From positions 1-56,625 of the forward strand of contig CALLWB010000111.1 of assembly GCA_938016265.1 (NCBI GenBank): 56,625 nucleotides of DNA, read 5' to 3'. The notes below the pieces were generated by a model. It searched no databases. It had not been told where the DNA came from and worked only from the letters and a program-made list of their open reading frames with translations. Made by a program: the position numbers and the translations under genes. Positions 1,768 through 42,935 of this stretch are shown here, one piece after another. Numbering within the stretch: the first letter of the stretch is position 1; each line of letters opens with the position of its first letter. This stretch comes from an uncultured Saprospiraceae bacterium. GTDB taxonomy: Bacteria > Bacteroidota > Bacteroidia > Chitinophagales > Saprospiraceae.

Positions 1768-1866
1768 TGTTATTTGGTTATTAAGTTATTGGGTTACTAA
1801 GTTATCCGGGGAAAATTCCACCTAATAACTTAGTAACTCCATAACCGAATAACTTAGCAACTCAAT
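1768..1866. repeat. Inverted arrays of a degenerate 8-bp repeat between convergent genes
   Basis: The left arm is made of GTTATTTG, GTTATTAA, GTTATTGG and GTTACTAA-like units; the right arm of ATAACTTA, GTAACTCC, ATAACCGA, ATAACTTA and GCAACTCA. The arms contain a perfect 13-base inverted match (1793-1805 with 1825-1837), so the transcript can fold from either side. It lies exactly between two convergent stop codons and may serve as a bidirectional terminator, but it has no clear T-run. The same 8-mer appears at several other gene ends in this window. Confidence 0.65.
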
Positions 1867-4800
1867 CCAATTGTTCCAGTTTTTCAAGGCGTTTGTTCAA
1901 TAATTCCATTTGTTCCAATAGCACATTGTTTACCTGCTTTAATGACTGAATCTCTGTATTTTGATCCTGGATTTCTGTTTGTTGTTCTTGGATCGCTTTT
2001 GTTAATACAGGAATCAACTCCGTATATCGAATACTCCAAAAGTCATCTTCTTGCTCAGGAATATGGACTATTTCAGGAATTATTTTCTGAATCTCTTGTG
2101 CCATAAAACCAAGACTTTTTACCGTTCCACCTTTGTAGTAATAATTGAAGGCTTTTATCTTTAGAATTTCGTCCAATCCATATTCTAAAGGAAGGATATC
2201 CCGCTTTGCACGCATGTCAGAAATCGCAGCCCAGGTATTTGAACCAGCATTCAGACGTGCCCCAGTAGTAAACGCCTGATTGGTAAACAATCGATAACCA
2301 CTAACAAAATGAGCATTAAATTGATTCGCTAAGGAAGAAGTTGCACCAACAGTGTTATTACCACCTATCGCCCAAGAATTAACATGATTCACCCTATTTG
2401 TATATCCAACCGCTACTGCGTTGGTAGCAGTTACTATATTGTTTTGACCTTGTACCAAGCAATGATCAGATCCAGTATTTATCACATTGTCTGCACCAGC
2501 AACGATATTCAAATCAGAGTCAGTAAGTCTATTCCGAAGTCCCACAACCAAATTTCCATGGCCTGTACCGCTAGGGTTGGTGGTGTAAATCTCATTACCT
2601 ATACCTGCGACGATACTCCATAGGCCATTCATTGTATTTAGAGTACCTGCTACTGTATTGGCAGTGGCACTAGCTGATAAAGTGTTCGTATGACCAGAAA
2701 CTACATTAGAAGGGCCATTTACAATATTGTCTAGACCGGTAACCACATTATTCGTCCCTCCAATAGTATTACGTCCTCCAAATGCGGCACTATTTGTTCC
2801 AGTTATCGCGTTTTGTACACCTCCACTTAGTGAGTTGTTTCCAGATACGTTATTTGCATTTCCAAAAACAACAACAGATTGTCCTGATGCGGAAGTATTG
2901 AGACCTCCAGCCAATGAATACGCTCCAGTTGCTTTATTTGGAACTCCTAGTGCACCATAAGAAATTGATCCATAAGTATAAATATTGTGTGCAATATTAG
3001 TAGGAGGTTGATTCGTATTGACATTATAAAAATCATGATCAGCTACTGGTATCGCCTGTGTTGCAAGAACTCCATTACCGTCAGCAATAACCATTCTATT
3101 GCCTGTGCCGCCAAGGTTAGAAAAACGCCCAGTACCTACAACATGCAATTTTTGAGAGGGAGCAGTTGTTCCGATACCAACATTTCCAGTAGCATTCATG
3201 AAGTTTATTTTACCGCTATTAAAATGTAGATTTCCAGAGGCAAGTTCAATTCGGAGCGGTCGAAGGGCATTGTATGACCCATCAGGGGTATCCGTTATTA
3301 GTGCCCAGAAGTTAGCATTATCATTTCGTAACATCACACTTTTAGTTGGACCTCTTAGTTTGAAGGCGTTTGCATTTCTTGAGGTAATTTCACCAACCAC
3401 ATCAAGTTTGTAAAGTGGAGCTTCTGTACCTATACCAACTCTTCCATTGTCTCCTGCATAAAAGAAAGGCGTATTGTTGTCCCGGATGGCGAAATCTCCT
3501 GTTCCATTCAAATTATAAGTCATTCTCTGTGCCCCTTGAGTTATTGTTGTGGCTTCTACTAAAACACCTCCAAGTTGGATTCTATCTGCTGCTGCATCTA
3601 TATTAATCCCATTATTGGCTGCAGCACTAACAGTTGGTGTTCCAGTGGTTCCTCCCCCGGTCAAACCTGACCCGGCAGTAACTCCAGTAACATCACCAAT
3701 TGGAATAGCTTGAGTGGCAAGATCTCCATTTCCAGTAGCAATAACCATTCTGTTTCCTGTTCCGGCTAAGGTTGATATTCGAGTTGTCCCGACAACATGC
3801 AATTTTTGTGCTGGTGTCATTGTTCCAATACCTACATTTCCACCGGTAAAATAACTGCTACCAAACCCATGGATACGGGTGGTAACTAATCCAGCATTAT
3901 ATACATCAATAACTCCTCGGTCAAGGTTATCAAATATCCTCACCAAATTGTCCCCATTTACTGATCCATCTCTTAGGTATAAATCATCAGATAAAAAGGA
4001 CGTACCAGTTACATTAAAAGCACCAGAATTGGCTATTCCTCCAACCGTAACTCGTCCATTATCCAAAACGGAAAAACGATTGGATCCTGCATCTCTAATT
4101 AAGAAATCACCAGTAGATGTCAGATCATGAATCATGGTATATGCTCCATGGGTAAGGGTGGTAGTTTCAGTAAGAGGTCCACCCAATTGTATTCTATCAG
4201 CGGCGGCATCTATATTTATTCCATTATTCGCTGCAGCAGATACGGAAGGAGCAGTAGCTGTCCCTCCAGGAACTAGGCCAACGCCAGCAACTACGCTCGT
4301 TAGATAGCCATTGTTGTTTACAAAATTGTCTACTTGGGCTTCTGAGAGCTGTGTATTCGTATCGGTGTCCGTAAAAGAACCACCTCCATTGGATAAGGTA
4401 ACCACATTTCCAGTTTCAGAAATGGTTTGAATCTCGTTGGTCGGATTGCTATCTGCATCATTGATCGAAACCGAACCACCACCATTAGAGAGCGTAGCAG
4501 TGCTTCCTGATAGAGATATAGTTTGGGCTCCAATTGGAATTGCTTGAGCGGAAAGCACCCCATTTGCATCAGCGATCACCATACGATTGCCAGTACCAGA
4601 TAGCGAAGAAATTCGTCCGTCCCCTACAACATGTAGTTCCTCTGTAGGAGCTTCTGTACCGATACCTATACGACCATTGTCTCTTGCTATGAAAAGAGGC
4701 AATCCATTATCTCGTATTACAAAATCTCCAGTACTTGTCAGATTATGAGTAATTCGAAAAGCTCCTTGTGTAATCGTTGTGTTTTCCACTAGTGCTCCTC

Positions 4801-6484
4801 CAAGTTGGATTCTATCTGCTGCTGCATCTACATTTATTCCGTTATTTGCTGCGGCTCTAACTGATGGGGCGGTTGCTGTGCCTCCTGGAAGAATACCAAC
4901 ACCTGCAGTTACACCAGTAAGAAATCCATTATTGCTGACAAAATTGTCAACTTGAGTCTCGGAGAGTTGAGTATTGTCATCTGTAAAACTACCTCCGTTA
5001 TTGGAAAGTGTTACTACATTTCCAGTTTCAGAGATGGTTTGAATCTCATTGGTGGGATTGCTATCTGCATCGTTGATCGAAATCGAACCACCGTTATTAG
5101 AAAGGGTGGCCGTGCTTCCTGATAAGGAAATCGTCTGCGATCCTATTGGAATTGCTTGCGTACTAAGAACTCCAGTAGCGTTAGCAATCACCATACGGTT
5201 TCCAGTACCAGAGAGTGTTGATATGCGTCCACGACCAACTACATGAAGTCTTTCGGATGGTGCGGTCGTACCAATTCCTACATTTCCAGTAGCATGGATA
5301 AATCCAACTTTATTGTTTGCCATATAGATATTTCCAGTGGTAAGCTGAATTCTATAGGGGCGTAAAGTATTATAAGTACTATCAGAAGAATCAGTTACTA
5401 AATGCCAGTAGTTATTATTGTCATTTCTTAATAAAACACTTCGGACGGTACCACGCAATCTAAATGCATTTGCAGCCCGACCAGCTATTTCTCCATTTAC
5501 ATCAAATTTGTAAAGTGGGGTTTCTGTGCCAATCCCTACTCTTCTAGTATTCATCGCGGCAAATAAAGGAGAGTTATTATCTCGGATCAAAAAATTACCT
5601 GCTCCACTTAAATTAGTGAGCATAAAATAAGGCCCTTGAGTAATTATGGTATTTTGATTTAATGAACCGCCTAGTCTGAGTTCATCTGCAACCGCATTTA
5701 CATTCAATCCGTTGTTTGCAGATACGGAAAAAGTTGGACTAGTGGCTGGTCCAGTAGTTGTAAGACCGTCGCCAGCTGCTACATTTGTTAAGTACCCATT
5801 ATTACTAACAAAGTTATCTACTTGAGCCTCATTTAGCTGAGTATCGGTGTCTGTATCTATGAATGTACCGCCACCATTGGACAGGGTAACTACATTGCCA
5901 GTTTCTGAGATGGTTTGCAGCTCGTTGGTGACTGATCCGTCTACTTCTGTGAGCAGGTAGCCATTGTTGTTTACATAATTGTCTACATCGGCTTCTGACA
6001 ATTGGGTATCCGTATCGGTAAAAGACCCACCGCCATTGGAAAGAGTAACTACATCCCCGATTTCTGTAATGGTTTGAATTTCGTTGGTTGGATCGCTGTC
6101 TTGATCTGGATCCGCGCTGATTGTTATAGTGTTACCAGATTCCATAATTTGGATATTGGTGCCTGCCTGGAAGATAATACCAGTTCCTCCGTCGATGTTT
6201 AGGATGGTAGAGGTTGGCGTTCCAATTCCCAATGTCAGATTTTGGTCGTCCGTGCCAACCATTGGTAGGGGCATGTGCCTGACCACACCAGTGTTGGGAT
6301 CTATAACCAAAACACTAGTCTCTGACGGAGAAAAGCCTTGCAGGCCTTCAATTCGGAGAGGATCTCCAGAAGTTGACAAGACATGCAACGTATGGGTAGG
6401 GATGGTCGTCCCAATCCCAACATTTTGAGCAAAGCTACTGAAAACAAAAAAAAATCCAGTTGCTAGTAGGAGGAGCTTTTTCAT
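1862..6484 (-). CDS. Giant secreted fibre with YadA-like head and S74 self-cleaving chaperone
   Basis: 1540 residues with a Sec signal (MKKLLLLATG...SFAQ, cleavage about residue 20). Residues 21 to about 1170 are tandem modules found in Bacteroidota tail-fibre-like proteins: NVGIGT-x-P...LHVVG blocks, 'TISETGNVVTLSNGGG' blocks and 'QLSEAQVDNFVSNNGYL' blocks. About 1180-1400 is rich in NxVxGxxNxV/G-x-N repeats like the head of trimeric YadA-type adhesins. Then comes the S74 (endosialidase intramolecular chaperone) domain, AISDMRAKRDI, with Ser1422 and Lys1427 five residues apart as in the Ser/Lys autocleavage dyad of this family. The last 40 residues are a coiled coil (EQQTEIQDQNTEIQSLK), fitting a trimer. 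It lacks a T9SS sorting tail. No phage genes surround it, so a cell-surface or exported trimeric fibre is inferred rather than a virion part. Confidence 0.85.
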   Translation of the reverse strand: MKKLLLLATGFFFVFSSFAQNVGIGTTIPTHTLHVLSTSGDPLRIEGLQGFSPSETSVLVIDPNTGVVRHMPLPMVGTDDQNLTLGIGTPTSTILNIDGGTGIIFQAGTNIQIMESGNTITISADPDQDSDPTNEIQTITEIGDVVTLSNGGGSFTDTDTQLSEADVDNYVNNNGYLLTEVDGSVTNELQTISETGNVVTLSNGGGTFIDTDTDTQLNEAQVDNFVSNNGYLTNVAAGDGLTTTGPATSPTFSVSANNGLNVNAVADELRLGGSLNQNTIITQGPYFMLTNLSGAGNFLIRDNNSPLFAAMNTRRVGIGTETPLYKFDVNGEIAGRAANAFRLRGTVRSVLLRNDNNNYWHLVTDSSDSTYNTLRPYRIQLTTGNIYMANNKVGFIHATGNVGIGTTAPSERLHVVGRGRISTLSGTGNRMVIANATGVLSTQAIPIGSQTISLSGSTATLSNNGGSISINDADSNPTNEIQTISETGNVVTLSNNGGSFTDDNTQLSETQVDNFVSNNGFLTGVTAGVGILPGGTATAPSVRAAANNGINVDAAADRIQLGGALVENTTITQGAFRITHNLTSTGDFVIRDNGLPLFIARDNGRIGIGTEAPTEELHVVGDGRISSLSGTGNRMVIADANGVLSAQAIPIGAQTISLSGSTATLSNGGGSVSINDADSNPTNEIQTISETGNVVTLSNGGGSFTDTDTNTQLSEAQVDNFVNNNGYLTSVVAGVGLVPGGTATAPSVSAAANNGINIDAAADRIQLGGPLTETTTLTHGAYTMIHDLTSTGDFLIRDAGSNRFSVLDNGRVTVGGIANSGAFNVTGTSFLSDDLYLRDGSVNGDNLVRIFDNLDRGVIDVYNAGLVTTRIHGFGSSYFTGGNVGIGTMTPAQKLHVVGTTRISTLAGTGNRMVIATGNGDLATQAIPIGDVTGVTAGSGLTGGGTTGTPTVSAAANNGINIDAAADRIQLGGVLVEATTITQGAQRMTYNLNGTGDFAIRDNNTPFFYAGDNGRVGIGTEAPLYKLDVVGEITSRNANAFKLRGPTKSVMLRNDNANFWALITDTPDGSYNALRPLRIELASGNLHFNSGKINFMNATGNVGIGTTAPSQKLHVVGTGRFSNLGGTGNRMVIADGNGVLATQAIPVADHDFYNVNTNQPPTNIAHNIYTYGSISYGALGVPNKATGAYSLAGGLNTSASGQSVVVFGNANNVSGNNSLSGGVQNAITGTNSAAFGGRNTIGGTNNVVTGLDNIVNGPSNVVSGHTNTLSASATANTVAGTLNTMNGLWSIVAGIGNEIYTTNPSGTGHGNLVVGLRNRLTDSDLNIVAGADNVINTGSDHCLVQGQNNIVTATNAVAVGYTNRVNHVNSWAIGGNNTVGATSSLANQFNAHFVSGYRLFTNQAFTTGARLNAGSNTWAAISDMRAKRDILPLEYGLDEILKIKAFNYYYKGGTVKSLGFMAQEIQKIIPEIVHIPEQEDDFWSIRYTELIPVLTKAIQEQQTEIQDQNTEIQSLKQVNNVLLEQMELLNKRLEKLEQLD
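3030..6090 (-). repeat. Internal coding repeats of the fibre gene
   Basis: Near-identical DNA blocks recur inside the fibre gene. The EIQTI...NNGYL block is at about 5951-6085, 5786-5926, 4921-5048 and 4301-4438. The VGIGT...LHVVG...GNRMVI...TQAIPIG block is at about 5150-5290, 4540-4650, 3700-3840 and 3040-3190. These units could shorten or lengthen the fibre by recombination or slippage. Confidence 0.7.
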
Positions 6485-6914: not shown

Positions 6915-8681
6915 ATGTCGAAAAATGCACATTTTAAGGTAGATCCTAAACTTGCCACGCTTCTTGGTGAGGACTACCGTTCTACAGAGCTAGCGCTCAA
7001 AGAATTAGTTGACAATGCATATGATGCAGATTCAGAAAATGTAAAAATAAACCTTCCCGAACCCTTTTCAGGAGACCCGATAATCATAGCTGACGATGGT
7101 ACAGGTATGACGGAGAAAGAAATAAGAGAAGAATACCTGCGTGTAGCCAATAGCCGGTTTTCCAGAAAAGGAGAACGAACCAGAGGCAAAAAGAGAATTG
7201 TAAAAGGAAGAAAAGGAATCGGAAAATTTGCCGGATTGTTGATTGCTGAAGTAATGCAAATTGCTTCTGTAGCCAGAGGGATCAAAACTACCCTCACCAT
7301 TTCTAAATCTGCTTTAATGCAGGCGGATTATGACCTAAGCAATATCAACCTCCCAATTGAAACAGAAAAAGTAGATACCGATCAGTCAGGTACCACGATC
7401 ACACTAGCCGGAATAAATGACAATTTACCATTTCCTAATGGGACGCGACTTCGACAATTATTGATTTCAGAATTCGGTAAAATTGAAGATTTTGCACTGA
7501 TCGTAAATGGTTCTGTTATCGATGTTCAAGACATCCCTGGCCAAACCTTCGAAGAAACCGTCTCCTTGCCAAAGGCAGGAACAATACACGCAAAATTTAC
7601 CATTTCCGATCAACGAAAAGTGTTGAAAAAATCGGGTTTAGTCATTCGTGTAAAAGGCCGGATCATTGGCGAACCGATGTTGTTTGGTCTTGAGAAATCA
7701 GAGGTTATTCCCGAAAAATTGATGAAACGAGTGATGGGTGAAATCATTGCTGACGGACTTGAAGATGATGTAACGGGAGACTGGGGAGCGATCATAGAAA
7801 GTAGTGAGATGTTCCAGGAGATAAAAAATTACATCAAGCCAAAACTCGAAGAATCCTTCAAGGAAACGTATGATACGGAGGTAAAAATGGCGAGTGCAAA
7901 ACTCAAAAAACGAGTGACTAAGGGACTGGCTAAATTACCATTGTATAGAAGAGAATTAGCCAAAAAATCACTAGAAAAAGTAATGCTCCGTTTCTTTGGA
8001 GAATCAGACGATAAAATTGCAACAGTGATCAGCGTTGTCCTAGGTGCTTTCGAAAAGGATGACTACGACTTAGTCACGAACAAAATCGAAAAATCAAAAA
8101 ACAAAAGCACCCCAACATTTATCAAGTCTTTCGTTCAATTTGGTGAAGTAGATACTGCAATTATGACGCGACAAGCCCAGAGCAGATTATCATTTATAGA
8201 AGAGTTTGATGGGCTGATCAACAATAAAGGAGCGACCGAACTCCAAATCAACAGTGCCCTTCAAAACAATTTATGGTTACTTGGTGTTGAGTTCCACTTA
8301 TCTTGCACCAACGATACGCTGAAGCAAGTAGTCAATGACTATTTGGATCGTAAATATGAAGAGCGAGCTGGTCGCAAAAAACCAGGCATCTTCTTGCTAA
8401 AAGATTACAAAAAAGACTTCACCCTTGTTGAAGTAAAACGCCCAGGTCATCCTATTCGTCGTGCCGACGAATCGAAGGTGCTCGCGCACAGAGATGATTT
8501 GATGTTGCTATTCCCTAAGAACAAAATCGACATTCTACTCATTGGTGATCGGATAAAAGAGAATACAAAGCTGAACCTAGGTGAAAACTCAAAATTCATT
8601 TCTTACGAAGAATTGGTGTCCAACGCCAAAAGCCAAACCAAATGGCTAAATGAGAGTCTTGTTTATGGAAATAGTTATTGA
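6915..8681 (+). CDS. GHKL-type ATPase fused to a Shedu-like (DUF4263) nuclease domain
   Basis: 588 residues. The N-terminal third carries a GHKL (gyrase/Hsp90/MutL) ATP site: N-box around E30 and N34 (ALKELVDNAYDA), G1 at D60-M65 (ADDGTGM) and G2 at 98-104 (GRKGIGK). The middle (about 170-330) looks like the S5-fold transducer that follows GHKL modules in MutL/MORC-like proteins, then a Lys-rich helical linker. The C-terminus (about 430-560) fits a PD-(D/E)XK nuclease of the Shedu type: E442-x-Q444...NNLWLLG, then a beta hairpin ending VEVKRP with E506 and K508. The ATPase may sense or clamp DNA and license cutting (inference). It stands alone behind its own promoter and lacks a methyltransferase partner, so a stand-alone anti-phage protein is the leading idea. 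Its stop codon lies in a dispersed 8-bp repeat. Confidence 0.75.
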   Translation: MSKNAHFKVDPKLATLLGEDYRSTELALKELVDNAYDADSENVKINLPEPFSGDPIIIADDGTGMTEKEIREEYLRVANSRFSRKGERTRGKKRIVKGRKGIGKFAGLLIAEVMQIASVARGIKTTLTISKSALMQADYDLSNINLPIETEKVDTDQSGTTITLAGINDNLPFPNGTRLRQLLISEFGKIEDFALIVNGSVIDVQDIPGQTFEETVSLPKAGTIHAKFTISDQRKVLKKSGLVIRVKGRIIGEPMLFGLEKSEVIPEKLMKRVMGEIIADGLEDDVTGDWGAIIESSEMFQEIKNYIKPKLEESFKETYDTEVKMASAKLKKRVTKGLAKLPLYRRELAKKSLEKVMLRFFGESDDKIATVISVVLGAFEKDDYDLVTNKIEKSKNKSTPTFIKSFVQFGEVDTAIMTRQAQSRLSFIEEFDGLINNKGATELQINSALQNNLWLLGVEFHLSCTNDTLKQVVNDYLDRKYEERAGRKKPGIFLLKDYKKDFTLVEVKRPGHPIRRADESKVLAHRDDLMLLFPKNKIDILLIGDRIKENTKLNLGENSKFISYEELVSNAKSQTKWLNESLVYGNSY

Positions 8682-8688
8682 GTTATTG
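8672..8688 (+). repeat. Short copy of the 8-bp repeat at a stop codon
   Basis: AGTTATTGAGTTATTG overlaps the last codons of the nuclease gene (AGT TAT TGA), so the repeat itself encodes the terminal -SY and the stop. Confidence 0.55.
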
Positions 8689-8746: not shown

Positions 8747-9250
8747 ATGAATCGAAATAATGGAGCAATTGGAGCTTTATTGGATGAATATGAAAAAGCA
8801 ATAAAGGAACTCAAAGTGGTCATTCAAAATGTAACTCCAGATGACTTAGTTCTCGTATTGGACAACGAAACGAAAGATAAAGATTGTAAATCTATCCAAA
8901 CCATTTTAAGTCATGTAGTTGAATCCGGGTACAATTATGCAGTTGTAATCAGAAAATGGCTAGGAGAGGAATTAGAGTACAAGAATAAAGAATCACTTTA
9001 CTCTGTCGTCGATTACAATTTTGCATTAGATAAAATGTTTGAATACAATGAGGAATTGTTTAATAATTACCCAAATATTCAGCTTGAAGAGTATAATCCT
9101 AATAAAAAAATAAATGTGAGATGGGGACAGATATATGATGTTGACCAATTATTCGAACACGCAATAGTACATATTTTAAGGCATAGAAGACAAATTGAAA
9201 GATTTAAAGAAAAACTAGAAGGAAATCCAGTAGAGAACAAAAGCAACTAA
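8747..9250 (+). CDS. DinB-fold protein
   Basis: 167 residues from the ATG at 8747; the frame is open from 8678 but the upstream part overlaps the nuclease stop and has a poor Ser/Cys/Asn-rich composition. It fits the DinB/DUF664 four-helix bundle: a helix with LSHVVESGYNY (metal-ligand His), and a late EHAIVHILRHRRQIERF helix with further His. Members are metal-dependent and include bacillithiol/mycothiol transferases, but many have no known substrate and none can be assigned here. It lies 65 bases after the GHKL-nuclease gene on the same strand, so co-transcription is possible; a functional link is unproven. Confidence 0.75.
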   Translation: MNRNNGAIGALLDEYEKAIKELKVVIQNVTPDDLVLVLDNETKDKDCKSIQTILSHVVESGYNYAVVIRKWLGEELEYKNKESLYSVVDYNFALDKMFEYNEELFNNYPNIQLEEYNPNKKINVRWGQIYDVDQLFEHAIVHILRHRRQIERFKEKLEGNPVENKSN

Positions 9251-9270: not shown

Positions 9271-9300
9271 CTAGTAACTCAATAACTTAATAACCGTAAT
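9271..9300. repeat. 8-bp repeat array overlapping the end of the metallophosphoesterase gene
   Basis: Units GTAACTCA, ATAACTTA and ATAACCGT in a row. Read leftward, they encode the last residues KLLSY and the TAG stop of the metallophosphoesterase. Confidence 0.55.
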
Positions 9301-17723: not shown

Positions 17724-17757
17724 GAACTAATAACCTAATAACTCAGTAACTATACAA
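17724..17757. repeat. 8-bp repeat array inside the iron-sulfur operon
   Basis: Units ATAACCTA, ATAACTCA and GTAACTAT fill most of the 57-base spacer between the two iron-sulfur genes, the same repeat seen at other gene ends. It has no hairpin partner here, so it need not terminate transcription. Confidence 0.5.
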
Positions 17758-25903: not shown

Positions 25904-28381
25904 ATGAAAAATGTCTTCTCTGTATTAATCCTTCTGCTCTTTGCTTTTGCCTTGTATGCACAAATACCAGTAAGAGATGGAACCTTTCATTTTGATGGTC
26001 ATGTGAATACACCAATCGGAACCAATAATGAAGATGGAGCTGCCGTTTTAGTCCAACCTGATAACAAAATAATTGTTGCCGGCACGCAGACTGGGCATCC
26101 AACATTTGGTCCGCAAAATTTTGCGTTAGTCAGATATTTATACAATGGTGATTTAGATCCAAGTTTTGGTAATGGAGGTATTGTCGTCAGTTCCTTCGAA
26201 TCACAAAATTATTGCAGGAATGCTGTGCTTCAACCAGATGGCAAAATCATAGCGGTCGGACAATCGTCTACTGGGTTTTGTATCGCCCGCTACCTGAGTG
26301 ACGGTACACTTGATCCGACCTTTGGCAATGCTGGATTCACCGCAACGGCCTCCCCTTTTGGATCAAGCTCGCTAAACGCTGCCACCCTTCTTGTAGATGG
26401 AAGTATCCTTGCCATTGGTAGTGCACAAGTCCCCTATTCCACTAATTTTGAGGTCGCCATTTTAAAATTCACACCCAACGGAGTACTTGACACGAGTTTT
26501 GGCAATGGAGGAATGGCCTTTCCTTCCCTTCCTTATACAACCGTCACCGGGATTAAAATCATCCCACAATCTAGTGGGGAAATTATCCTTGCGGGAATGA
26601 TCCGCTTCCTTAACGGTTCTACAACCATCCGACAAGGATATATTGCACGACTTTTGGCGGATGGGACATTAGATACCAGCTTTGGGACAAACGGGATGGT
26701 CCTATCGAATGCAGTGCTCGGTTTTACTGATTTCACTCAGGAGGTAAGTGGCAAGTTTGTAGGGGTCGGTAATGTTGCTACTAACCAATCAGGTACTAGC
26801 GGAAGCGTTGCCATGGTTAGGTTTAATGCAGATGGTACGCCAGATACTAGTTTTGGGACAAACGGATCTTCTGGTGCTGGTGTCAATTCCTATGCGGAAT
26901 ATGCCCATAGTGTGCTCCTACAACCAGACGGAAAAATCTTGCTTGGTGGAAGTTATTTCGATTTAAGCGGAGGTTCCGTAACGGACTGCGTTATTTTTCG
27001 ATTTTTGACCAATGGCTCTCTTGATCCAACCTTTGGAACAGGAGGTATTTATGAAACCGGTGTTTCCAGCAGCCACGATCGAATCTTGGATATGAAGTTT
27101 GACAACGATTACAAACTGGTCGTCTCCGGCGAAGGCAACTACGGTAGCAATTTTGATTTTATTGCTGGAAGAATACTATTAGATACCTTTATAATTATAT
27201 CAGGAATTCTGGATACTAACTCGGAGGTAACTTGTGCTGGCGGTGCAGATGGCAGTATCACAATAACCCCTACTGGAGGATCTGTGCCCTATTCCTTCCT
27301 CTGGAGTAATGGAGCATCAACCGAAGATATATCTGGGCTTGCAATGGGCTCTTATTCTTGTACGATTACAGATTCCGCTGGGAGTACTGGATTCCTAGGA
27401 CCGATTGTCATTGGTGAGCCTTTAACAATGAATTTTGATTCCTTTGTAAGTAATGCACCCAGTTGTTTCGGTTCAGGGAATTGTGACGGAAGTATCTCGG
27501 TAAGTCTTTCAGGTGGGACACCTCCTTATACGTACTTATGGTCAGACGGTCAAATCACTTCTACTGCAATTGCGCTTTGTGAAGGAACATATACCGTTAC
27601 TGCCACTGATGCGGTGGGCTGTCAGGAAACAAGTGCTTTACTCACTGTAGACGAAGCACCTGGTAATTTAATACCTTTGGTGGTCTCCATGGCGGCAAGC
27701 TGCATAGGGCTTTGTGACGGTAGCATAACTGCAAGTTACTCTGGCGGGACTCCTCCGTATACTTATTTGTGGAGCGATGGACAGACCACAACAACAGCCA
27801 CCAATTTGTGCTCAGGAGTATATTACCTTACAGGAACAGATGCAAATGGATGTCAGTCAAACATAACCTTGACTGTCGGTGAACCCACTTCAATCGGTAT
27901 AACTCTATCTGGTACAGGTGAATCTACTCCTACTGCTGCAGATGGACAAATTTCTTCTACGATCACTGGTGGCATTGCACCTTATCAATATTTATGGGAT
28001 ACTGGTGCACAAACACCAATGGTTTCTGGTCTTACAAACGGCACCTATTGCCTAACCATCACCGATGACAACGGTTGTTCTGAATTTGAATGTACCACCC
28101 TAATGTCTACCAGTCCAATTGAAGAATTAACTTTTGCTAGCGGTATCAAGATCTATCCAAATCCTACCAAGGGATTCCTTAGATTAGAAGTCATAAATGC
28201 CAATTTGAGCATCCATCAACTCAGTTTGTATTCATCGGTTGGACAATTGGTTTTGGAAGAGAATTGGAATGGAACACCAATCAGCAAACAATTTGATTTA
28301 AGTCGGCTGCCTAACGGTGTTTATCTATTGACAATTGAAACCGGACTAGGGACCGTTTGCAAGAAGGTGGTGGTCTATTAA
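25904..28381 (+). CDS. Secreted delta-60 / SprB-repeat protein with T9SS tail
   Basis: 825 residues with a Sec signal (1-21, FALYAQ). About residues 40-420 hold six delta-60 (DUF5122) beta-propeller repeats with the motif LD-x-(S/T)-FG-x-x-G (for example DLDPSFGNGG, VLDTSFGNGG, SLDPTFGTGG). About 440-740 carry four SprB-type repeats (C-x-G...DGSIT...GGTPPYTYLWSDGQ...GTYTVTATDA.GC). The end is a type A sorting domain (IKIYPNPTKGFL ... NGVYLLTIE ... KKVVVY). T9SS cargo; a surface or released adhesive propeller. SprB repeats are known from gliding adhesins, but motility cannot be concluded here. Confidence 0.9.
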   Translation: MKNVFSVLILLLFAFALYAQIPVRDGTFHFDGHVNTPIGTNNEDGAAVLVQPDNKIIVAGTQTGHPTFGPQNFALVRYLYNGDLDPSFGNGGIVVSSFESQNYCRNAVLQPDGKIIAVGQSSTGFCIARYLSDGTLDPTFGNAGFTATASPFGSSSLNAATLLVDGSILAIGSAQVPYSTNFEVAILKFTPNGVLDTSFGNGGMAFPSLPYTTVTGIKIIPQSSGEIILAGMIRFLNGSTTIRQGYIARLLADGTLDTSFGTNGMVLSNAVLGFTDFTQEVSGKFVGVGNVATNQSGTSGSVAMVRFNADGTPDTSFGTNGSSGAGVNSYAEYAHSVLLQPDGKILLGGSYFDLSGGSVTDCVIFRFLTNGSLDPTFGTGGIYETGVSSSHDRILDMKFDNDYKLVVSGEGNYGSNFDFIAGRILLDTFIIISGILDTNSEVTCAGGADGSITITPTGGSVPYSFLWSNGASTEDISGLAMGSYSCTITDSAGSTGFLGPIVIGEPLTMNFDSFVSNAPSCFGSGNCDGSISVSLSGGTPPYTYLWSDGQITSTAIALCEGTYTVTATDAVGCQETSALLTVDEAPGNLIPLVVSMAASCIGLCDGSITASYSGGTPPYTYLWSDGQTTTTATNLCSGVYYLTGTDANGCQSNITLTVGEPTSIGITLSGTGESTPTAADGQISSTITGGIAPYQYLWDTGAQTPMVSGLTNGTYCLTITDDNGCSEFECTTLMSTSPIEELTFASGIKIYPNPTKGFLRLEVINANLSIHQLSLYSSVGQLVLEENWNGTPISKQFDLSRLPNGVYLLTIETGLGTVCKKVVVY

Positions 28382-32312: not shown

Positions 32313-32371
32313 ATAGTTATTTGGTTACGGAGTTATTGGTTATTGAGTTACTGGATAACTGAGTTGATTGG
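32313..32371. repeat. Array of the 8-bp repeat
   Basis: Runs of GTTATTTG, GTTACGGA, GTTATTGG, GTTACTGG and ATAACTGA units lie between two leftward genes. The array is upstream of the SBBP gene rather than in a terminator position. Same family as at 1768-1866. Confidence 0.5.
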
Positions 32372-39292: not shown

Positions 39293-39442
39293 ATGGACAA
39301 ACAAATAAATGTGCCTATTTTCGTCCTCCCCAATAAATTCTTAAAAATAGTAGGATTAAAGCGAGATCACGATGCCGTCCGCTTGGTATTAGACAGGATA
39401 TCACCATATGCAGTTAAAAACCTTATCTATAAAAGGGTTTAA
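39293..39442 (+). CDS. Possible 49-residue protein overlapping smc start
   Basis: ATG at 39293, stop at 39440-39442, 49 residues (MDKQINVPIFVLPNKFLKIV..., then LKRDHDAVRLVLDRISPYAV). It runs 35 bases into smc in another frame. The composition is protein-like and the position would suit translational coupling. No family is known and it may be chance. Confidence 0.3.
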   Translation: MDKQINVPIFVLPNKFLKIVGLKRDHDAVRLVLDRISPYAVKNLIYKRV

Positions 39443-42400
39443 AAGTTTTGCTGACAAGACCATTGTCAACTTCAATCAAAACATCACCGGAATCGTTGGT
39501 CCGAACGGTTGTGGCAAGTCGAATATTGTCGATGCGATACGGTGGGTGCTTGGCGAACAGAAAAGTCGGGAACTGCGGTCGGAAAAGATGAGTAATGTAA
39601 TTTTTGCTGGTACTAAAAAGCGGAAAGCGGGTGGCTTGGCAGAGGTTTCCTTGACTTTTGAGAATACTCGGAATTTGCTGCCTACGGAGTATCATACAGT
39701 GACGATTACTAGAATGCTGTATCGTAGTGGGGAGAGCGAATATCGGTTGAACAATGTTCCTTGTAGACTGAAAGATATCAAGACGTTGTTGATGGATACT
39801 GGGATTGGGTCGAATTCTTATGCGATTATTGCGCTTGGAATGGTGGATGATTTGCTAAATGATCATGAAAATTCCAGAAGAAGATTGTTTGAACAAGCTG
39901 CTGGAATCTCTAAGTTTAAAATCAGGAAACGAGAAACGTTTAACAAACTCAAGGGCACAGAGGCTGATCTGGATCGGGTGGAGGATTTGTTGTTTGAAAT
40001 TGAAGGGAATCTGAAGACGCTTGAAAAACAAGCAAAACGAGCTAAAAAATACTTCGAACACAAGGAAAATTACAAGGCCCTAAGTATAGAATTGGCAGTC
40101 TACAGACTGATAGATTTTAAAGCGATTTACAAAGGGCTGAAAGAAAAAATCCAGTCGGAAAGCGATAATAAACTGAAGTTGGAGACCACTTCCAAGAAGT
40201 CCATATCTATTCTTGAAAAAGAAAAAGCCAGCAATCTGGAAAAAGAAAAGGAACTTTCTGACAAACAAAAGGGCCTCAACAAGTTGATAGGGATAACCCG
40301 AAGCAAGGAAAATGACAAAAAAGTCCTAGAACAAAAGGTCAACTTCATCACGCAGAATGAAACCAACCTCTTCCGTCAAATTGAGTCTGGACAGACCAAT
40401 CTCCAGCAAAATGAGACAGACATCGTCTATTATCGAACCGAAATCAATACCGAAAAAAAGATAGAGGAAAAACTAGAAACCCAACTTGAAGCAGCAGAAG
40501 CCCAACTCAAAAAAATAAGGGACAGTCATGGAAGTCTAAAAACAGAGCTGGATGATTTCATGCGAGAACAACAAGCTCAAGAACGCCAAATCTTTGAATT
40601 GGAAAAGAAAAAAGCGATTCAATCCAATCAAAAAGAAAACATCGAAAACGAACTGAGGCGAAACGAAGAAGAAATAAAACGACGCACAGAAGACCTCAAA
40701 TCCCTAAAAGGAAATTTCAAAAAACTCTCCGCCAATCGCAATGAGAAGGAAGAATTAATCGTCAAACTAGAAAAACAAGAAAACGAACGCCAAGTAAAAA
40801 TTGAGTCGACAGAGGAAGAACTCGAAAAAATAAAACAGGAAATCGTCCTCCTAAACCGACAGCTAGACTCCAAACAAAATGAATACAAACTGACAAAAAG
40901 TCTAGTAGACAATCTAGAAGGTTTCCCAGAATCCATCAAATTTCTTAGCAAAAACAAAACCTGGGGAACAAACGCCCCTCTACTTTCTGACGTCATTTAT
41001 TGTAAGAAGGATTACCGTATTGCTATTGAGAACTATTTGGATAATTATTTGAATTATTACGTAGTAAAAAACCTGCAAGAAGCGCTAAAAGCAATTAGCC
41101 TACTAGAGAAATCACAGAAAGGAAAGGCCAACTTCTTCTTGCTAGATCAATTGCCAACCCTGGAGTTAAGAACCGCCCCGCCTCAAAACACCGTCTCTGC
41201 ACTAGAAGTAGTCGAAGTAGAAGAATCGTACCAACGGCTTTGCTATTATCTATTGGACAAGGTATTCCTTACCGACAAAGAGTCTGCTGATGATCTACAA
41301 AACGAGAATCCAGCAGCCATCATTCTATCAAAAAGTGGAAAGTTTGTAAAGTCCAGGTTCGCTATTTCAGGAGGATCTGTTGGGCTGTTTGAAGGAAAGC
41401 GGATTGGCCGAAAGAAAAACCTCGAGGTTTTAACCAAAGAAATCGCAAAATTGGAAGCCAACGGCAAAAAATTGTCCGCCAGTTTTGAAAAAACACACAA
41501 AAGCCTGAATGACCTTAAAAAAGCAACCATCAAACCGCAAATTGAGGTAGAAAAAGTCAGCTTAGGCAAGCTGCAACAAGAAGCCGCCACCATGCAGGCC
41601 AATCTTGAAAACTATGAGACCTTCCTCAACAACGTCCTTGAAAAGAAGAAGCAATCCCTGGACCGAATCAAAGAGATCGAAACAGAAAATAAAAAAATAG
41701 AGGTGGACCTGAAAGCAACTTCCAAAAAGGCTGCCACCCTCAAAAAGAAAATCGAGGACATGGATTCCTCCTACAAAGATATCGCAGACGCACTCAGCAA
41801 AGCATCTACAGAATACAACCAAAAAAACATCGAGTTTATCCGCCAGCAAAATAAGATAAACGCCCTGCAAAGAGAGCTATCCTTCCGAGAAAAACAGATC
41901 TCTGACATCCGCACAAAATTGGAGCAAGATCAACTATCCAGACAAAGCTCGCAGGCAGATCTCGCTAAGGCAAAAGAAGATATCGTCCAACTCGACATCG
42001 ATTTAGTCCAGTGTTACAAAGACAAAAAGGCATTCGAAACCAATTTGAACGACTTCGAACAAAACTATTATCAGTCAAGAGGAACGATCAATGAACAAGA
42101 GGATACCATTAGAAAACTGACAAAATCCATTCAAGATAGCCAGTCTCTACTTGAATCCCTTCGCGAAAAATACAGCGAGGTAAGAATTGAGTTGCATTCT
42201 ATTGGCGAACGCATGAAAATCGAATTTGGAATTGAGGTCAACGAGATCATGAACAATGACCCGAATCCAGATTTCACAATGGAAGAACTGGAAGAAAAGG
42301 TCGCCAAACTCAAGGTTAAAATTGAAAATTACGGAGAGATCAACCCGATGGCTGTCGAAGCATATGATGAAATGAACGAACGCTACCAGTTTATCAGTGC

Positions 42401-42935
42401 CCAGCGAAACGACCTTCGAGAAGCCAAGGACTCCCTATTGAAAACAATTGAGGAAATAGAAATCACTGCTACGGCCCAATTTATGGAAGCCTTTCATCAG
42501 GTAAGGGAAAATTTCAAAATCGTTTTCCGTAGTCTATTTACCGAAGACGACAATTGTGATTTGATGTTGGAAGATCCTGAAAATCCGCTAGAATCTCCTA
42601 TCAAAATTACGGCGAAGCCCAAGGGAAAACGGCCACAGTCCATCAACCAACTGTCAGGTGGGGAAAAGACATTGACAGCAACAGCACTTTTATTTGCGTT
42701 GTATTTATTGAAACCAGCACCTTTCTGTATTTTCGATGAGGTAGATGCGCCACTTGATGATGCCAACATCGGCAAATTCAACAAAATCATCAGCAAATTT
42801 TCGGATGATTCTCAATTCATCATTGTCACCCACAACAAGCAGACCATGGCCTCTGTAGACGTTATATATGGGGTCACGATGGCAGAGCAAGGTGTCTCTC
42901 GAGTCGTCCCGGTTGACTTCCGTAGCTTGGGTTAG
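39408..42935 (+). CDS. smc: Chromosome segregation protein SMC
   Basis: 1175 residues, full length for the family. Walker A GPNGCGKS at 31-38; two long coiled coils (about 170-500 and 670-1000) separated by the hinge (about 515-650); C-terminal signature LSGGE at 1082-1086; Walker B CIFDEVDAPLDD with D1110 and E1111. Forms the ATP-driven dimer that, with ScpA and ScpB, compacts and separates the chromosome; neither scp gene is in this window. Cytosolic, nucleoid-associated. A small frame overlaps its start. Confidence 0.95.
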   Translation: MQLKTLSIKGFKSFADKTIVNFNQNITGIVGPNGCGKSNIVDAIRWVLGEQKSRELRSEKMSNVIFAGTKKRKAGGLAEVSLTFENTRNLLPTEYHTVTITRMLYRSGESEYRLNNVPCRLKDIKTLLMDTGIGSNSYAIIALGMVDDLLNDHENSRRRLFEQAAGISKFKIRKRETFNKLKGTEADLDRVEDLLFEIEGNLKTLEKQAKRAKKYFEHKENYKALSIELAVYRLIDFKAIYKGLKEKIQSESDNKLKLETTSKKSISILEKEKASNLEKEKELSDKQKGLNKLIGITRSKENDKKVLEQKVNFITQNETNLFRQIESGQTNLQQNETDIVYYRTEINTEKKIEEKLETQLEAAEAQLKKIRDSHGSLKTELDDFMREQQAQERQIFELEKKKAIQSNQKENIENELRRNEEEIKRRTEDLKSLKGNFKKLSANRNEKEELIVKLEKQENERQVKIESTEEELEKIKQEIVLLNRQLDSKQNEYKLTKSLVDNLEGFPESIKFLSKNKTWGTNAPLLSDVIYCKKDYRIAIENYLDNYLNYYVVKNLQEALKAISLLEKSQKGKANFFLLDQLPTLELRTAPPQNTVSALEVVEVEESYQRLCYYLLDKVFLTDKESADDLQNENPAAIILSKSGKFVKSRFAISGGSVGLFEGKRIGRKKNLEVLTKEIAKLEANGKKLSASFEKTHKSLNDLKKATIKPQIEVEKVSLGKLQQEAATMQANLENYETFLNNVLEKKKQSLDRIKEIETENKKIEVDLKATSKKAATLKKKIEDMDSSYKDIADALSKASTEYNQKNIEFIRQQNKINALQRELSFREKQISDIRTKLEQDQLSRQSSQADLAKAKEDIVQLDIDLVQCYKDKKAFETNLNDFEQNYYQSRGTINEQEDTIRKLTKSIQDSQSLLESLREKYSEVRIELHSIGERMKIEFGIEVNEIMNNDPNPDFTMEELEEKVAKLKVKIENYGEINPMAVEAYDEMNERYQFISAQRNDLREAKDSLLKTIEEIEITATAQFMEAFHQVRENFKIVFRSLFTEDDNCDLMLEDPENPLESPIKITAKPKGKRPQSINQLSGGEKTLTATALLFALYLLKPAPFCIFDEVDAPLDDANIGKFNKIISKFSDDSQFIIVTHNKQTMASVDVIYGVTMAEQGVSRVVPVDFRSLG

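Follow-up and report, generated by a model that had tools for sequence, protein, structure and literature searches.

The gene at positions 6,915 to 8,681 of the window (the whole stretch of DNA analysed, 56,625 nucleotides from an uncultured member of the Saprospiraceae) encodes a 588-aa protein in which an N-terminal GHKL ATPase is joined to a C-terminal PD-(D/E)XK-like domain related to the Shedu nucleases. The ATPase motifs are intact, and glycine occupies the position of a nuclease aspartate. With confidence evenly balanced, we favour the view that the gene is an accessory relative of the GHKL-Shedu (paraMORC3-type) proteins that has lost the normal nuclease site and kept the ATPase, and whose product would hold DNA in an ATP-driven manner without normal cleavage. 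The pairing of a GHKL ATPase with a Shedu-type nuclease is already known; retention of the ATPase together with repeated loss of the nuclease site is the new part.

Gene and domain organisation

The features of the gene, all on the forward (+) strand, are as follows.

6915..8681, +: whole gene, 588 aa, from the ATG at 6915 to the stop at 8681; GHKL ATPase, S5-like, helical and PD-(D/E)XK-like parts in that order
6915..7532, +: GHKL ATPase domain, residues 1-206 (Pfam HATPase_c_3; invariant columns; Foldseek matches to TRAP1 and MORC)
7002..7016, +: GHKL motif I, E30-N34 (sequence, alignment)
7092..7106, +: GHKL motif II, D60-DGTG (sequence, alignment)
7206..7226, +: GHKL motif III, G98-RKGIG-K104 (sequence, alignment)
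7533..7805, +: S5-like transducer domain, about residues 207-297 (model strands between 209 and 278; 11 of 12 invariant columns over residues 207-310)
7806..8219, +: long helical region, about residues 298-435 (model helices 298-338, 343-359, 365-381, 384-393 and 399-435)
8220..8654, +: degenerate PD-(D/E)XK-like domain related to Shedu SduA_C, about residues 436-580 (10 of 20 invariant columns over residues 431-588)
8238..8240, +: E442, helix acid of the nuclease site, kept (alignment)
8385..8387, +: G491, a catalytic Asp in 17 of 23 core rows (alignment)
8430..8438, +: E506-V-K508, E-x-K motif, kept (alignment)
8475..8489, +: K521...H525, Q...Y in intact relatives, a QxxxY-like motif (alignment)

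The open reading frame is real, and the residues singled out in an earlier note on this DNA are all present at the positions it gave them: E30/N34, D60-D-GTG and G98-x5-K104 in the ATPase, and E442-x-Q444, NNLWLLG (451-457) and E506-V-K508 in the nuclease. The N-terminal GHKL site that it proposed was borne out by a Pfam match to HATPase_c_3 (97.7 bits against a cut-off of 25, E 7e-28), with every motif kept. Membership of the MutL or Hsp90 families was rejected, N-terminal matches to these reaching 13-37 bits against cut-offs of 180-937.

An AlphaFold model of the protein, built from a 7-row alignment, had a mean pLDDT of 74.4 and a pTM of 0.55, with low confidence at residues 383-417 of the helical region. 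The C-terminus was modelled as helix 442-451, strands 492-496 and 502-507, helix 516-532 and strand 538-544, a predicted alpha/beta domain whose order of helices and strands is PD-(D/E)XK-like, as the earlier note had anticipated. In a Foldseek comparison of the whole model with the PDB, the best 50 matches were to TRAP1/Hsp90/HtpG and MORC2/3/4, with E values from 1e-13 to 8e-12. Most of the TRAP1 and MORC matches span about 370-450 columns and the query TM-scores are low (0.24-0.29), the domains perhaps being set at other angles. No Shedu structure was found among the best 50 matches of either whole model, in searches of a kind that the GHKL part dominates. Judged by its sequence, the 588-aa protein is no obvious pseudogene, and its parts appear to be under differing pressure.

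Distribution of relatives

Full-length relatives were detected in 11 of 398 genomes of the family (one of them a contig-end fragment), 4 of 395 of the phylum and 2 of 248 of the order, the genome of the window being included in each count. Another order yielded four in 164 genomes, of which one was already in the phylum sample and three were 28-30% identical. Matches to the GHKL part alone were excluded as relatives: of 148 genomes, 34 gave a match at E 1e-3 and only 4 (own genome included) gave a full-length one. The gene is present in two of the three genomes of its own genus. Relatives also occur on six plasmid records, from Azospirillum, Agrobacterium, Sinorhizobium (two), Caballeronia and Rhizobium, and on five viral contigs, at 38-42% and 37-40% identity respectively; there were none among 50,697 phage records. 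The gene is accessory and patchy in its distribution.

Residues were compared in a core alignment of 23 full-length rows, consisting of the 588-aa protein and loci from 13 other genomes, four plasmids and five viral contigs. Three loci were left out before counts were made, namely L036, whose frame ends early and in which the nuclease motif is absent, L051, an 89-aa contig-end piece (80% identical), and the partial L065. Outside this sample lie H4, a second plasmid record from Sinorhizobium, and H9-H13, which are distant plasmid records. Identity of the 588-aa protein to the 17 core rows with an intact nuclease motif ranges from 37 to 46% over 97-99% of its length.

The nuclease site

The Asp of KRPDLLL...LLIEFKRP is kept in 17 of the 23 core rows. 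The remaining six carry G (the 588-aa protein, at G491, and L002), Q (L043), A (L044), F (L045) or E (L059). The stretch around G491 is ungapped in the 588-aa protein, in which the Pro and the E-x-K motif are retained. Five distant rows that align at the nuclease (L088, L089, L090, L066 and L037) possess the Asp, and in a profile of the intact rows it aligns with the D of the Shedu structure 8ti8, the match being weak (E 0.094). Because the 17 core rows and the five distant rows keep this residue, which is also found in 8ti8, it is most likely ancestral. The viral-contig locus L066, a distant GHKL relative, keeps the Asp and has Met in place of the Lys of E-x-K, perhaps another route to a damaged nuclease.

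Loss of the Asp is accompanied by wider change in the same domain. Of the columns invariant in the 17 intact rows, the 588-aa protein retains 44 of 46 in the GHKL domain, 11 of 12 in the S5 region, 13 of 17 in the helical region and 10 of 20 in the nuclease; when the 17 intact rows were left out in turn, each kept 20 of the 20-22 nuclease columns. The changed nuclease positions include H446, E450, R489, Q521 and Y525. The sole changed invariant position of the S5 region is K249, now R (7659-7661); its relative at 73% identity has K, and the substitution might touch ATP coupling.

The Shedu relationship that the earlier note had assigned to the C-terminus holds by way of the intact relatives and fails when the protein is searched by itself. 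Twelve of the 17 intact rows were scanned with the Pfam SduA_C profile, and every one matched at E up to 1 (best 1e-7), the match of L061 lying at 24.5 bits, below the Pfam cut-off of 27. A full-length profile of intact relatives (A3) matched Shedu structure 8ti8 in the PDB at E 7e-4, and a nuclease-only profile (A4) matched Shedu there weakly, at E 0.094. Three of the six Asp-less rows matched SduA_C at E up to 1, and the 588-aa protein was not among them: the DUF4263 profile check put forward in the earlier note failed, SduA_C/DUF4263 being absent from two C-terminal stretches at E up to 10 and from the whole protein at E up to 1. The PADLOC model of SduA gave just 12 bits (E 0.021).

The E-D-ExK set of the 588-aa protein is accordingly incomplete, with E442, E506 and K508 present, as they are in the 73% relative, and D replaced by G491. 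The nuclease site proposed earlier was thus correct in its residues and overlooked the glycine in place of the motif Asp. On this evidence the nuclease of the 588-aa protein is probably dead and normal DNA cutting improbable. The further proposal that ATP-dependent clamping controls a Shedu cut becomes doubtful, given the loss of the Asp, of half the nuclease-invariant columns and of the Q and Y of the QxxxY-like motif.

It is unlikely, in our estimation, that the protein is instead an active GHKL-Shedu defence nuclease resembling VcSduA of Vibrio cholerae, in which another residue or a water molecule replaces the Asp in an unusual working site. Such a site would accord with the retention of E442 and E506-x-K508, with the Lys of E-x-K in all six Asp-less rows, with the SduA_C matches of the intact relatives and with the dependence of VcSduA on its nuclease Lys (PMC12137116). 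Against this, the 17 other core rows and the five aligned distant rows all have the Asp, the five positions H446 to Y525 named above have changed as well, and two Asp-less rows have lost more of the site, the E of E-x-K being absent from L045 and the helix E from L059.

Origins of the loss and selection

In a tree built on residues 1-430 the Asp-less rows formed two groups, each beside Asp-bearing rows. A single origin of the loss was rejected by the AU test (p 0.012 for residues 1-430, 0.011 without the long row L063 and 0.035 for the GHKL domain alone). These trees indicate at least two losses of the Asp within the Bacteroidota rows sampled. Summed branch lengths of the nuclease relative to the N-terminal part, on a fixed topology, came to 2.50 on Asp-less branches against 1.21 elsewhere, which indicates faster evolution of the nuclease domain on the Asp-less branches (Mann-Whitney p 0.001 for 10 and 33 branches respectively, each branch being taken as independent).

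The closest Asp-less pair, L044/L045, gave dN/dS values of 0.029 for GHKL, 0.030 for S5, 0.050 for the helical region and 0.172 for the nuclease. The corresponding values for the intact pair L048/L057 were 0.050, 0.046, 0.023 and 0.025; a second intact pair, L033/L034, gave 0.024 for GHKL and 0.092 for the nuclease from very few changes, and in other intact pairs the nuclease dN was 1.1 to 1.6 times that of GHKL. Synonymous sites were saturated between the 588-aa protein and L002, for which the nuclease dN of 0.295 was 2.4 times the GHKL value of 0.124. In L044/L045, the sole Asp-less pair with measurable dN/dS, these ratios indicate strong purifying selection on the ATPase. The nuclease ratio of the same pair is well below 1, and its fold therefore appears still to be used.

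These figures also bear on a decaying defence gene, in which the nuclease was lost once defence no longer paid and the remainder is disappearing. Change in half of the nuclease-invariant columns would fit decay, as would the patchy presence of the gene (two of three genomes in the genus, and 11 of 398 in the family with one a contig-end piece). However, the six Asp-less frames are open, with no internal stops, the ATPase residues are almost fully retained after long divergence, the ATPase dN/dS of L044/L045 is 0.03, and the same pattern recurs in two lineages; we regard decay as distinctly unlikely.

Loss of normal cutting with retention of the ATPase, the explanation favoured here, has difficulties of its own. 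The retained E442, E506 and K508 are odd for an abandoned site, and metal could be bound otherwise; the nuclease dN/dS of L044/L045 is well below 1, and greater change in the nuclease was seen in the intact pair L033/L034 too.

Comparison with known systems

The earlier note was not aware of any characterised system with this exact pairing. That claim falls, and an unknown pairing was rejected, fusion of GHKL with a Shedu-type nuclease being already in the literature; the novelty of the pairing is reduced because paraMORC3 was defined in 2008 and the anti-phage activity of VcSduA was shown in 2025. In Iyer, Abhiman and Aravind 2008 (PMC2292703), paraMORC3 comprises GHKL, S5 and a C-terminal RE-fold domain with E-D-ExK, stand-alone members are noted in proteobacteria and bacteroidetes, and such proteins are suggested to act possibly outside restriction-modification (R-M) systems. 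The 588-aa protein shares the GHKL, S5 and C-terminal RE-fold-type arrangement and stands alone, but differs in having G where paraMORC3 conserves the D of E-D-ExK (PMC2292703).

As described by Adams et al. 2025 (PMC12137116), VcSduA combines GHKL with DUF4263, is assigned to Shedu type I-D and protects against phages in plating assays, and its defence is abolished by E27A or K557A; an ATPase clamp around DNA is proposed, and the role of the ATPase part alone is only hypothesised. The likeness to the 588-aa protein extends to an N-terminal GHKL ATPase, a middle clamp-like region, a C-terminal Shedu-related PD-(D/E)XK domain and a single gene, whereas the nuclease Lys is needed in VcSduA and the 588-aa protein lacks the Asp. 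From the GHKL Glu to the nuclease Lys there are 530 residues in VcSduA (E27 and K557, in the numbering of that paper) against 478 here, which, by published numbering of unaligned sequences, suggests a subfamily other than that of VcSduA.

The remaining comparisons are more partial. Shedu SduA (SduA_C, PDB 8ti8) resembles the protein in C-terminal motif order, by way of the intact relatives, and differs in that the protein itself lacks both an SduA_C match and the Asp. The GHKL N-terminus resembles the BbrUII/HgiDII restriction enzymes (NCBIfam NF050001) at 161.9 bits, far below the 550-bit cut-off, the best stretch covering residues 21-206 only. Identity as a type II enzyme of this kind was rejected on that score and with no linked methyltransferase named among the 33 window proteins scanned with PADLOC (E 1e-5). 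Eukaryotic MORC proteins share the GHKL and S5 module, MORC2, MORC3 and MORC4 being among the Foldseek matches, whereas the 588-aa protein has no CW or coiled-coil parts. MORC ATPases work without a nuclease of their own, and to our knowledge MORCs have not been described as fused to a dead nuclease. A literature search, in which subscription papers are poorly covered, brought up no recognised report on inactive GHKL-Shedu proteins.

Proposed function

GHKL proteins undergo ATP-dependent dimerisation and clamping. By analogy with these relatives, and with the proposal made for VcSduA, binding of ATP would close a dimer of GHKL, S5 and helical arms around DNA. The architecture suggests that the protein might then hold, bridge or compact DNA, probably foreign DNA, without normal cutting, and that the C-terminal fold may serve as a dimerisation or DNA-binding part and not as a cutter. 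A bolder form of this explanation, possible but tentative, is that on at least two occasions in the Bacteroidota a GHKL-Shedu/paraMORC3 defence nuclease became a nuclease-free clamp, driven by ATP, that restrains foreign DNA uncut, a bacterial counterpart of the eukaryotic MORC proteins. Natural relatives in which the ATPase is kept and the nuclease site lost would represent a ready-made experiment on whether GHKL clamping alone restricts phages or plasmids, and could model how the nuclease-free MORC ATPases arose.

As GHKL proteins act as dimers, an Asp-less protein could also regulate an intact GHKL-Shedu protein or act as its dominant-negative partner. This is barely credible in view of the Asp-less genomes themselves, in which no second full-length copy was found: G000 was searched at E 1e-3, G002, G079, G226 and G322 at 1e-30 with every candidate scored, and G865 with five of seven candidates scored, G322 and G865 being 73% and 86% complete.

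Genomic neighbourhood

In the window the gene is surrounded by genes for a phosphoesterase, a TPR protein, a DinB-like protein and a surface protein of the endosialidase-chaperone type. A comparison of 59 proteins encoded beside the six Asp-less loci showed only five to be shared (E 1e-3), all between L044 and L045. No partner gene common to the loci was found, in agreement with the single-gene nature suggested earlier. The DinB-like gene (8747-9250) lies on the same strand, 65 bases past the stop of the 588-aa gene, and its Pfam DinB match (22.3 bits) is just below the cut-off of 23; a co-transcribed DinB-like partner was rejected, since the other five Asp-less genes have no such gene next to them, and at L002 the corresponding downstream position is held by an AAA-type gene. 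An R-M partner was likewise rejected, no methyltransferase, helicase or Vsr gene being named among the window proteins scanned (Pfam; PADLOC, 33 proteins, E 1e-5). The distant relative L038 (3940-7637) adjoins genes for a DNA cytosine methyltransferase and a very-short-patch endonuclease, like an R-M-type paraMORC locus, and the intact L033 and L034 adjoin a DEAD/DEAH helicase gene.

In L044 and L045 the gene lies between Band_7 and PhoD-like genes. These two genes are adjacent in the congener G324, from which the gene is absent, representing an empty site; in the congener G283 the PhoD-like gene was found and the Band_7 gene was not, in the 6 kb taken. The gene occurs in two of five genomes of this genus. 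Patchy presence and an empty site fit defence, decay or chance gain alike. No flanking gene was shared between G000 and its congener G002 in the stretches compared; since the metallophosphatase homologue of G002 also occurs in another context, this missing synteny does not separate transfer from rearrangement.

Takeover for a chromosomal task other than defence, such as repair or chromosome organisation, has little probability. The scanned neighbours of the Asp-less genes are mostly ordinary, as such a task would have it, and the possible role outside R-M systems that Iyer et al. suggested for stand-alone paraMORC3 proteins (PMC2292703) points the same way. A core task would however be expected to be conserved within a genus, and the gene is sporadic, has no flanking gene common to G000 and G002 in the stretches compared, and is missing from an empty site in a congener of the other lineage.

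The survey of defence genes around homologues that the earlier note had proposed gave a divided result, intact loci being richer in defence families and Asp-less loci offering nothing convincing. The 33 window proteins scanned (the SMC-like ORF and small ORFs left out) matched two PADLOC families at E 1e-5, subtilase and mad2, and 36 proteins from around the remaining five Asp-less loci also matched two, by one protein each (LmuA, 5e-9; RTasMBL, 5e-8). At the same threshold the intact loci, for which 81 of 131 neighbours were covered (16 of the 17 loci represented), yielded 177 PADLOC families (families, not proteins). In same-phylum genomes, 3 of 10 neighbours of eight intact loci matched. 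The richer surroundings of the intact loci are weak evidence because plasmids and viral contigs are over-represented in that set, the same-phylum sample reaching only 3 of 10.

Several further features of the window were observed. A 16-base repeat like AGTTATTGGGTTACTG is present in nine copies with up to 3 mismatches (mean of 0.6 in shuffles), at 1784-1799, 1839-1854, 8673-8688, 9272-9287, 17728-17743, 27253-27268 and 32315-32361. Inverted copies flank the DinB-like gene, one lying over the stop codon of the 588-aa gene and the inverted one after the DinB-like gene. On the reverse strand, positions 1862-6484 (-) encode a 1540-aa repetitive surface- or fibre-like protein that has a C-terminal Peptidase_S74 endosialidase-chaperone domain and a match to the trimerisation domain of the phage Gp34 fibre. 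Positions 39408-42935 encode a 1175-aa protein that by eye is an SMC-like coiled-coil ATPase, with an N-terminal GPNGCGKSN and a C-terminal LSGGEK, and this ORF would account for the strong AT skew seen at 40-42 kb.
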